Source: Oscillospiraceae bacterium (lineage in GTDB: Bacteria; Bacillota; Clostridia; Oscillospirales; Ruminococcaceae). Taken from it: a stretch of DNA of 38,643 nt. A model generated the notes under the pieces. The model was not told the origin of the DNA. It searched no databases and worked only from the letters and a program-made list of their open reading frames with translations. The stretch covers positions 1-38,643 of the forward strand of contig SVMV01000007.1 in assembly GCA_015067245.1 (NCBI GenBank). Reading direction: 5' to 3'. The stretch's first letter is position 1. The number at the start of each line of letters is the position of its first letter. The position numbers and the translations under genes are program-made. This document shows positions 451 to 9,500 of the stretch, piece by piece.

Positions 451-482
451 CTTCCATAAGGTAAGTATTACCCTTATGGAAG
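451..482. terminator. Strong hairpin upstream of xis (CTTCCATAAGG-TAAgtaTTA-CCCTTATGGAAG)
   Basis: 11-bp perfect stem, extended by 3 bp past a one-base bulge; intergenic, inside the element end. Confidence 0.6.
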
Positions 483-635
483 CAAATGTAGCGGTAGCAG
501 AAAAAGAGGTTTAAACAGATGTTCAGCCATAGAAAGAAAAAGCAGAAAGATATGCATCCATACGAAGCCCAAAAGCGGTTTTGCAGTGGTGTAAGCAAAG
601 GTTTTCATTTAAAGGACAGCGTCAGGAGGTTAAAC

Positions 636-833: not shown

Positions 834-912
834 TATGTAGTAAAAGGGAAAAGGGTATGTTATAATTGCAGTAATATATCCTTTTTCTGCCTGTTAAGGA
901 AGGAGAATATAA

Positions 913-2145
913 ATGGCAGAAAGAAGAAAAGACTCTAAAGGCAGAGTTTTAAAGGAAAATGAATCTCAGCGCTCAGATGGTATCTACTGTTACAGATGGA
1001 GAACATCAGACCACAAAAGACATTATATCTATGCAGGAACACTTGAAGAACTGCGAGAAAAAGAGAAAAAAGTACAAAGAGATGTAAGTGATGGAATCCG
1101 TGTTGATGCCCAGCGTGTTACACTGAATGATATATACGAGCTGTGGGTGGTTCTGAAAAAAGGATTGAAACACAATACTTTTACCAATTATCAGTATATG
1201 TATAATCAGTTTGCGAGAAATGATATCGGCAATATCAAAATTGTAAACCTTAAACGTTCTGATGTGCGCAGATTCTATAATCGTCTGATAGATGACAAAG
1301 GACTGAAAATCGCAACGATTGATAATATCCATACCGTTATACATCAGGTGTTGGATGTTGCGGTTGATGACGGTTATCTGCGAAACAATGTAAGTGACAA
1401 TGCACTGAAAGAACTGAAAATGTCCCGCAATCTTTTTACCGAAAATCGAAAAGCACTTACTTTAGAAGAACAGCGTATTTTTCTTGAATATCTTCAAAAA
1501 ACGCCACAATACAACCACTGGTATCCCGTATTTGCATTTATGCTTGGCACAGGCTTAAGAGTCGGAGAAGCTACGGGTTTAAGATGGTGTGATATTGATA
1601 TGGAGAATGACAGTATCAGCGTCAATCACACTCTTGTATACTACAGCAGAGATAAAGGCCATTGCGGTTTTGCGGTAAATACACCTAAGACCAAAGCAGG
1701 TGAAAGAACAGTACCTATGATAGCAAGTGTAAAGGAAGCGCTGATGCTGGAAAAACAGTATCAGGAAGAAGCAGGGATACATAGCCGAGCACTGATAGAC
1801 GGATTTACAGATTTTATATTTGTCAACCGATTTGGCGATGTACAGCATTACGGAACACTCAACAAGGCAATCAACCGCATAGTCCGTGACTGCAACAATG
1901 AAACACTGAACAATACAAAAAATATCGAAAAAGCAGTATTGTTGCCACATTTCAGTTGTCACACCTTGAGGCATACATTTACAACCAGATTGTGCGAATC
2001 GGGAATGAATGTAAAGGTAATTCAAGAAGTTTTAGGTCATTCGGACATTTCAACTACACTTGATATTTATGCCGATGTAACAAGAGATTTGAAGAAAAGA
2101 GAAATGCAGAGGTTTGAAGATTTTATAGGTGAAACAAGAGTGTAA
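913..2145 (+). CDS. int: Tn916-family site-specific tyrosine recombinase / integrase
   Basis: Tyrosine-recombinase catalytic signature: GTGLRVGEATGLRW (Arg), HTLRHTFTTR (HxLR), LGHSDISTTLDIYADV (His, Tyr); N-terminal arm-binding region. Confidence 0.95.
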   Translation: MAERRKDSKGRVLKENESQRSDGIYCYRWRTSDHKRHYIYAGTLEELREKEKKVQRDVSDGIRVDAQRVTLNDIYELWVVLKKGLKHNTFTNYQYMYNQFARNDIGNIKIVNLKRSDVRRFYNRLIDDKGLKIATIDNIHTVIHQVLDVAVDDGYLRNNVSDNALKELKMSRNLFTENRKALTLEEQRIFLEYLQKTPQYNHWYPVFAFMLGTGLRVGEATGLRWCDIDMENDSISVNHTLVYYSRDKGHCGFAVNTPKTKAGERTVPMIASVKEALMLEKQYQEEAGIHSRALIDGFTDFIFVNRFGDVQHYGTLNKAINRIVRDCNNETLNNTKNIEKAVLLPHFSCHTLRHTFTTRLCESGMNVKVIQEVLGHSDISTTLDIYADVTRDLKKREMQRFEDFIGETRV

Positions 2146-7756: not shown

Positions 7757-7984
7757 AATAACGCTCCGTTTAAGGACAATATCGGGCAGGAGCACCTGCC
7801 CGATTTGTCTTTTTATTTTTTTGGTTTTAACTTAAAAGTGTGTAAAGTGTAATTTTTTCAAATTACTGTGCAGCATTTGCTGCCAAAAGTGTAAAAATGT
7901 TTTGATTTTTAAAGCTTTTCTGCTTTATGAATTATACAAATTTTCCGGATTGATTTTACCAAAACCGCCTGCCGCCACAAAAGC

Positions 7985-8190
7985 GGATTATTATAACCGC
8001 ACGGTAGGTTTCGGTCTTACCGTATAATTAGTCTGCGGTTTCAACGTTCTCGCCTTAAATAAGGCGGGGTTGTTATAACCGCACGGCAGAATTAATTTTT
8101 GTGTACTGATTAATCTGCGGTTTCAACGTTCTGACCGCGGAAATCTGTGATTTCCGAAAATGCGTATGCATTTCACAGCTTTAGCTGTGC
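7985..8190 (-). other. Structured RNA-like array (6 hairpins, two copies of AGAACGTTGAAACCGCAGA) between livK and livH
   Basis: Manual pairing: CACAGCT/AGCTGTG, AAATGC/GCATTT, GGAAATC/GATTTCC, CGCCTTA/TAAGGCG, and two AACCGCA...TGCGGTT stems in tandem. Confidence 0.6.
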
Positions 8191-8200
8191 GGGCAGGTTG

Positions 8201-9376
8201 TTATTTAACGTTGTCGTAGGAAACGTATACGCCGTCAACGATAACAACAGCTGTTGCGTTTTTGTCTGGTTCGCCAGAAGCGTCCCATCTCATTGTACCT
8301 GTTGTACCAACAACTTCGATTTCAAGCATTGCTGCGATCATTGCTTCGTTGAAGCCTTCTTCTTCAGGTGTAACGCCTGCTTTTTCGAATGCTGCTACGA
8401 TTGCGTATACTGCGTCGTATGCGTCTGCTGCAAACTGGTCAGGTGTTGTGCCGTATTTTGCTTTGTAAGCTGCTGTAAAGGATTTTGTTGGTTCTGTTTC
8501 GCTGTCTGCTGCGAATGGTGTAAGGAGCATAACGCCTTCAGCAAGTGGAAGGTTGTCCTGACCGATTTTTTCAAGGATACCGTCAAGGCCGTCACAGCCG
8601 AAGAATGTGATGTCAAGACCAGCTTTGTCAGCCTGTGTGATGATGTAAGCTGCTTCCTGTGCGTAGATTGGGAGGAAGAGAAGGTCTGCGCCAGATTCTT
8701 TAACTGCCTGAAGCTGTACGGAGAAGTCTGTGTTGGACTGGTTTGTGAAAGCTTCGTCTGCTACGATTTCAAGGCCGTTTTCTGCTGCTGTGTCAACAAA
8801 GGATTTTCTGAGGCCGTTGGAGTAGTCGTTGGATTTATCGTAGATGATAGCAACTTTTTCTGCTACTGCGTTGTCTTTGATAAAGTTAGCTGCGTAGAGA
8901 CCCTGTGCGCTGTCTTCGAAGCAAACGCGGAAGCAGTTGTCGTACTGTGTACATTCAAGCTGGCTGCCAGATGGTGTAAGGAAAAGCATATTGTCAACTT
9001 TAGCTTCTTCTGTGATTGCGATACATGCACCAGATGTTGTGCCGCCAAGTGTTACGTCCATGCCGTCGTCAAACATTGTTGCATAAGCCTGAACTGCCTG
9101 TGCGCCGTCTGCCTGGTCGTCTTCTACTCTTGCATAAACTGTCCAGCCATCTGCAAAGCCGCCGTTAGCGTTGATTTCTTCTGCTGCAAGTTCTGCACCC
9201 TGTTTAACGGATGTGCCGTATGTTGCATAGTCGCCTGTAAGTGGGCCTGTACCGCCGATGTAGAGAACTTTTTCTGTTTCTGCGCTGCCGCCTTCAGCTG
9301 CAGGTTCGCTGCTGCCGCAGGCTGTCATGCTGACCATCATAGCTGCTGCTAAAAATAATGCCATTAATTTTTTCAT
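8201..9376 (-). CDS. livK: Branched-chain amino acid ABC transporter substrate-binding lipoprotein (LivJ/LivK)
   Basis: Lipoprotein signal MKKLMALFLAAAMMVSMTACGSS; periplasmic-binding fold (GGTGPLTGDYATYGTSVKQGAELAAEEIN). Confidence 0.93.
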   Translation of the reverse strand: MKKLMALFLAAAMMVSMTACGSSEPAAEGGSAETEKVLYIGGTGPLTGDYATYGTSVKQGAELAAEEINANGGFADGWTVYARVEDDQADGAQAVQAYATMFDDGMDVTLGGTTSGACIAITEEAKVDNMLFLTPSGSQLECTQYDNCFRVCFEDSAQGLYAANFIKDNAVAEKVAIIYDKSNDYSNGLRKSFVDTAAENGLEIVADEAFTNQSNTDFSVQLQAVKESGADLLFLPIYAQEAAYIITQADKAGLDITFFGCDGLDGILEKIGQDNLPLAEGVMLLTPFAADSETEPTKSFTAAYKAKYGTTPDQFAADAYDAVYAIVAAFEKAGVTPEEEGFNEAMIAAMLEIEVVGTTGTMRWDASGEPDKNATAVVIVDGVYVSYDNVK

Positions 9377-9500
9377 AACTAATACCTCTTTTATAAAATA
9401 TTTTTTATTTCTGTTTATAATAACCATTCCAAAGCTCCGGACTCTTTGGGCTGGCTGTATACATATTTATGTTTACGGCCTTTTGGCCGTTAAACCCAAT

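Follow-up and report, generated by a model that had tools for sequence, protein, structure and literature searches.

The window analyzed here is a stretch of 38,643 nucleotides from an Oscillospiraceae genome (contig SVMV01000007.1), and on its minus strand the branched-chain amino-acid binding protein gene livK is followed by livH across a spacer filled with hairpins. The array in this spacer consists of a short, strongly folded repeat that codes for no protein and is present twice, head to tail; together the two copies occupy positions 8201 to 7992 of the window sequence. The original prediction had described a tandem hairpin array with a duplicated 19-nt motif; every hairpin that it named was found on the minus strand, and the motif (AGAACGTTGAAACCGCAGA) recurs exactly at 8132 to 8114 and 8050 to 8032. 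Folding of the region from the livK stop codon to window position 7780 gave −127 kcal/mol, compared to −86.6 ± 6.0 kcal/mol for 100 dinucleotide shuffles (z = −6.7).

Comparison with relatives changed how the array is parsed. The boundaries of the feature should be redrawn so that it starts with the livK stop codon TAA (8203 to 8201). The repeating unit, of about 80 to 130 bp, is [ACAACC - junction - AACGTTG - AAACCGC...GCGGTTA]TA, and its parts follow in the order X, closing stem, variable terminal part, Y, hairpin H, and TA (Table 1). X can be written as TAACAACC or as TAANAACC, and Y is AGAACGTTGAAAC, with the general form GAACN′TTGAAAC. The TAAN of X pairs with the N′TTG of Y; a 3-by-3 internal loop (AAC/AAC) and a 7-bp stem (CTGCCCG/CGGTCAG in the window) follow. 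The variable terminal part consists of three hairpins in a four-way junction in unit 1 and of a single hairpin in unit 2. A single four-way junction, with CTGCCCG/CGGTCAG as its closing stem, has as its arms the three short hairpins that precede the first 19-mer, and the CGCCTTA/TAAGGCG hairpin is the reduced form of the same part. A short hairpin does lie ahead of each long hairpin, as had been noted, but it belongs to an X-Y domain that unit 1 has in full and unit 2 in reduced form. Hairpin H opens with AAAC and a variable arm, ends with the complementary arm and GTTATA, and is 49 to 53 nt long in this genus (usually 50 or 51 nt). TTGAAA in Y and TATAAT at the right end were considered as a −35/−10 pair and rejected, their spacing being too great.

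Table 1. Features of the livK-livH spacer array and its host gene (positions in the window)
Feature	Position	Strand	Details
livK, branched-chain amino-acid binding protein, insertion host gene	8201..9427	-	ORF and orthologues
livK stop codon TAA	8201..8203	-	T8203-A8202, presumed target TA; A8201, first element base; empty versus filled congener alleles
Unit 1, 128 nt with terminal TA	8074..8201	-	Model match 8118-8208, 92.7 bits
X and 5′ side of closing stem	8190..8203	-	TAAC / AAC internal loop / CTGCCCG; TAAN pairs with N′TTG; N-N′ covaries C-G / G-C / U-A
Four-way junction hairpins	8138..8189	-	Hairpin 1, 8189-8174; hairpin 2, 8173-8158; hairpin 3, 8156-8138; helices 3, 4, and 5; double changes in every pair
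3′ side of closing stem, AAC loop strand, and Y	8117..8137	-	CGGTCAG, AAC, GTTG AAACCGC; window sequence, unit coordinates
Hairpin H1, 50 nt	8074..8123	-	AAACCGC 8123-8117 with GCGGTTA 8082-8076, then TA 8075-8074
Unit 2, 82 nt with terminal TA, reduced form	7992..8073	-	Single hairpin CGCCTTATTTAAGGCG, 8066-8051; model match 8036-8080, 33.7 bits
Hairpin H2	7992..8041	-	AAACCGC 8041-8035 with GCGGTTA 8000-7994, then TA 7993-7992

Conservation of the fold and spread of the repeat

Copies of the unit were aligned. The structure obtained in a first pass with MAFFT and RNAalifold was poor because arm lengths differ between copies, so the structure was set by hand and then retested on 46 distinct matches. 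Paired cells made up 78.8% of the first alignment, which had 17 sequences, compared to 66.7% in shuffles and 34 to 39% in slid controls. In the alignment of 46 matches, which was fitted to the model and in which two rows are weak opposite-strand matches, 89.9% of cells were paired and 25 of 29 pairs carried double changes (0 of 500 shuffles); the covariation score was 0.525, versus 0.148 for shuffles, and slid controls gave 31 to 39%. An alignment-free test was applied to 39 non-redundant units. N and N′ were complementary in 36 of them (C-G in 17, G-C in 11, and U-A in 8), against at most 25 in 2,000 shuffles, and 5.38 of 6 closing-stem positions were paired, against 3.37 after shuffling. The arms of hairpin H also covary: in a set that includes some copies from other genera, 3.4 of the 4 variable positions pair on average (shuffle maximum of 3.0 in 5,000), and in nearly all copies of this genus the arms pair at 7 of 7 positions despite their variable sequence. 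The fold has been kept under selection by compensatory change, as the comparison of copies shows, and the structure-conserved RNA unit proposed at the outset is borne out by strong covariation. Such a fold could work as single-stranded DNA, in mobilization, or as RNA, in the host mRNA, and the sequence is compatible with both.

The covariance model gave 11 matches in this genome, and of the 16 genomes available for the genus, 10 had the unit. When 199 genomes were drawn from the family, six were positive, from five genera (this one and four others). Under stricter filters, a search of 394 genomes of the order returned no match beyond this genome; such filters, together with a four-way-junction model, can miss reduced forms. 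A genome of another genus, G123, contains 71 X motifs, mostly in tandem arrays, compared to none with a reversed-pattern control. Matches that bear a name come from metagenome bins of Oscillospiraceae, including one sampled in goat rectum, and since the genomes are metagenome assemblies, some arrays may be misassembled or chimeric. A single match in a pattern scan of IMG/VR (L112) had the look of a coding region and was judged to be due to chance. We conclude that the repeat has multiplied within the genomes of a small number of gut Oscillospiraceae, chiefly by insertion at the stop codons of housekeeping genes. A small repeat element had been one of the options first raised, and it is the one that fits: multiple non-coding copies under about 200 bp lie at many unrelated loci and are polymorphic among close relatives.

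Several loci (L178, L179, L181, and L189) hold a divergent, related repeat (AAGAACNCAGCAG...CTGCTGCAACCTTGCA), which shares the AAC/AAC layout but is bordered by conserved flanks of its own. In G123, loci L123 to L142 are tandem arrays of about 75- to 110-nt units in which a terminator-like GC hairpin and T-run are followed by TATGTTATAA(T/C); these units may be tiny transcription units in their own right.

Insertion at stop codons and other TA sites

Empty and filled alleles of livK were compared among congeners. In G004 and G006 (LivK 95% identical), livK ends in ...gttaaR-TAG and ordinary spacer follows directly, with no element. In G000, G012, G014, and G002, it ends in ...gttaaR-TA/ACAACC...GCGGTTA/TA/..., with T as the fourth base in G002 (TAATAACC). 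The right flank of the filled allele in G014 (TA/GTTGTTCC) agrees with the sequence of G006, which has the empty allele (TA/GTTATTCC), and wherever a right flank is resolved, it goes on as the third base of the former stop codon would. The filled alleles thus indicate that the unit was inserted at the TA of the stop codon and that TAA was rebuilt; LivK is unchanged because the element's own first base completes the stop codon. Orthologues of livK occur in 12 genomes, and in 4 of these the element is present. Presence and absence between relatives were also seen after pyrF, pyrD, ackA, and dnaK, so that insertion polymorphism with identifiable empty sites is documented at these four loci and at livK. 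Precise excision was not seen among the alleles compared, and the single loss observed (ackA in G006) is an imprecise deletion remnant of the element. The pyrF and grpE copies of one genome are 95% identical, which indicates that copies disperse between loci. In tandem arrays, new units abut old ones at a shared TA. The G012 assembly (7% contamination) holds two different pyrD-pyrF loci (L145/L167 and L151/L159), with the element after pyrD in one and after pyrF in the other; these are possibly two strains that were binned together.

We consider it highly probable that a non-autonomous, non-coding mobile repeat was inserted at the livK stop-codon TA and makes up the livK-livH array as two head-to-tail copies. 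The repeat would have landed at this TA, its first base A completing TAA, and tandem arrays arise as newer units join older ones at a common TA. A recombinase or transposase acting in trans would recognize the fold, most simply as single-stranded DNA hairpins, and the livK-livH mRNA would then contain the inserted repeat in hairpin form, any effect on the transcript being incidental.

In this genus, the TAA of the element is the exact stop codon of a gene at 13 of 17 sites, in 13 gene families: livK, ileS, pyrF, pyrD, a nifJ-like gene, an F420-ligase-like gene, a lipoprotein-like gene without a Pfam match, a PALP enzyme gene (ilvA-like), dnaK, ackA, a purL-like GATase gene, grpE, and a short-chain dehydrogenase gene (some of these names come from reading the translation only). 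The share expected at stop codons is about 9%, calculated as RARTA at stops over RARTA at stops plus non-coding DNA in one 38.6-kb window, and with the divergent repeat left out of the counts, the binomial tail for 13 of 17 is 4e-11, or 9e-8 with a conservative share of 17%. The four other sites are at tRNA-Thr(GGT), at tRNA-Arg(CCT), and in two arrays upstream of genes. At the tRNA-Thr site, the 3′ end of the element resupplies GCTGTTA, the first seven bases of the tRNA. The two gene-upstream arrays have a right end that is TGTTATAAT or nearly so, a promoter-like sequence of the extended −10 type, and in G123, where 11 right ends are resolved, 9 show such a putative extended −10 sequence.

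These sites would also suit a new class of structure-dependent element whose machinery prefers functional TA sites in transcribed DNA or RNA, inserts in the sense orientation, and rebuilds each site, whether a TAA stop codon, a tRNA 5′ end, or an extended −10 box. Single-stranded DNA could be inserted where transcription has opened the target, or the route could pass via RNA. We regard this reading as quite improbable.

Two details of the tRNA copies were noted separately. Copies at L056, L177, L180, L182, and L183 adjoin tRNA-Arg(CCT), with the 5′ half of the tRNA repeated on their left side, which looks like tandem growth that included the tRNA 5′ half. The tRNA-Thr copies (L028 and L006) match the model on both strands, their junction being nearly palindromic.

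The breadth of the host genes bears on whether the array regulates the liv operon. It had been suggested that a regulatory RNA here tunes binding protein against permease. A cis-regulatory RNA such as a riboswitch or attenuator would account for the position in the livK-livH spacer, the transcribed strand, and the strong covariation, but the unit also follows dnaK, grpE, ackA, pyrD, pyrF, ileS, nifJ, and others, and it is absent from the livK-livH spacers of congeners with near-identical LivK. An Rfam scan of the array gave no match at gathering or relaxed E-value thresholds, in line with the early impression that this was no known riboswitch. The tuning proposal is thus not supported, and a liv-specific regulator is very improbable. 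(A match to the ssNA-helicase RNA [RF03070] at window positions 452 to 499 on the plus strand, at 57.8 bits, is unrelated to the repeat.)

A domesticated role at mRNA 3′ ends was also considered, with the stop-codon hairpins protecting or processing the upstream mRNA and shifting the ratio of upstream to downstream products. Some REP elements have been reported to alter this ratio through 3′-end hairpins. All stop-codon copies are in the sense orientation, many are intra-operon (livK-livH, pyrD-pyrF, pyrF-pyrE, and dnaK-dnaJ), and their structure is conserved; moreover, a correlation with mRNA decay is reported for bcr3, a repeat of comparable kind in Bacillus cereus (PMC3446304). On the other hand, the stop codon can be kept only if the element lies in the sense orientation, and presence among close relatives is patchy. 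We think this role unlikely as the explanation of the array, although an incidental effect on the livKH mRNA is possible.

Mobilization and relation to known repeats

Carrier genomes were searched for Y1 transposases and integron integrases, and neither an autonomous copy nor a mobilizing enzyme was found. Y1_Tnp (PF01797) was not detected in carriers G000, G002, G007, G012, G014, and G011, which is no proof of absence because most of these assemblies are 77 to 85% complete. Other carriers (G006, G001, G004, G123, G163, G196, and G214) do have a Y1 transposase. These results bear on a reading of the unit as a miniature IS200/IS605 (HUH, Y1) derivative of the REP/PATE type, with a left target ending in TA, two subterminal hairpins, a right cleavage site at GTTATA, and no target duplication. 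Such an origin would explain the two hairpins in fixed order, the strand-specific and structure-dependent conservation, the resemblance of the right end to the left target, and, if the right end is itself a target, the tandem arrays. Against it stand the negative Y1 searches in the six carriers and the lack of a GTAG or CGTC tag, and we hold it to be doubtful.

Another candidate origin, which the TA on both sides of resolved insertions favors, is a miniature inverted-repeat element of the Tc1/mariner/IS630 type that duplicates TA, in the manner of RUP or Correia elements; RUP uses TA. One of the two TAs could, however, be the element's own end, the ends ACAACC and GCGGTTA are by eye not good mutual inverted repeats, and a transposase acting on double strands needs no covarying internal fold. 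This origin is rather unlikely.

The layout of the repeat led us to consider an integron attC site seriously. Like attC, it has a folded, recombination-like arrangement, with paired boxes around an unpaired spacer, a variable terminal structure, TAAC...GTT, and a stop-codon location. The G of GTT is invariant in attC, but the corresponding position covaries freely in the repeat. The integron integrase model TIGR02249 had no match above cut-off in 20 genomes, and no gene cassettes lie between the sites. Recombination by an integron integrase is therefore scarcely credible, and the attC reading was dropped. A 410-amino-acid ORF in the window (912 to 2145, plus strand) contains, in its C-terminal part, a weak tyrosine-recombinase match to TIGR02249 at 1918 to 2082 (52 bits, below cut-off).

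The mobile repeat at stop codons was also compared with described repeat families; a search of open-licence papers returned related kinds of repeat and not this family. MIRUs (mycobacterial interspersed repetitive units) are short mobile repeats that insert at start codons, disturb the host gene only minimally, and bring along a small ORF that is coupled with that gene (PMC12548453). The likeness lies in a short mobile repeat at a boundary codon with little effect on the host gene. In contrast, the repeat reported here is non-coding and junction-folded: units of this genus are hairpins that start at stop codons, and an internal ORF coupled at a start codon is not among their parts. BOX, RUP, and SPRITE are small structured mobile repeats; BOX and RUP are short and interspersed, have extensive RNA structure, insert into each other, and are polymorphic (PMC3049150). 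BOX and RUP, of Streptococcus pneumoniae, thus resemble the repeat in being short, structured, interspersed, nested, and polymorphic, but by their descriptions they favor gaps between convergently transcribed genes and have terminal inverted repeats, whereas this repeat lies at exact stop codons. REPs are structure-defined, recognized as single strands, often transcribed, and clustered (PMC3733652), all of which recalls the repeat. REP/RAYT systems differ in that REPs are 20 to 40 bp long with a GTAG or CGTC tag, while the units here are 80 to 130 bp with no such tag in the conserved parts of aligned copies, and in that the Y1 transposase went undetected in six, mostly incomplete, carrier assemblies. 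The bcr1 to bcr18 repeats of Bacillus cereus are likewise intergenic Firmicute families, some MITE-like, some with conserved secondary structure, and many cotranscribed; they belong to another host group, and their description, as far as it was compared, mentions no stop-codon targeting (PMC3446304). We call the repeat a new family of small structured mobile repeats with an unusual stop-codon preference; it resembles BOX/RUP, MIRU, and REP but fell outside the families that were tested, and it is set apart from BOX/RUP and bcr by their descriptions.

The structural conservation of the repeat exceeds that of a merely decaying parasite, and it may have a host-level RNA role. With empty and filled alleles, covariation, and tandem growth, it offers a well-resolved case for testing the selection that keeps a bacterial repeat folded. 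It is also a caution against inferring a riboswitch from covarying hairpins in an operon spacer and nothing more. Should complete genomes bear out the stop-codon preference, this would be a mobile repeat that avoids harm by hitting the stop codons of core genes precisely and rebuilding them.
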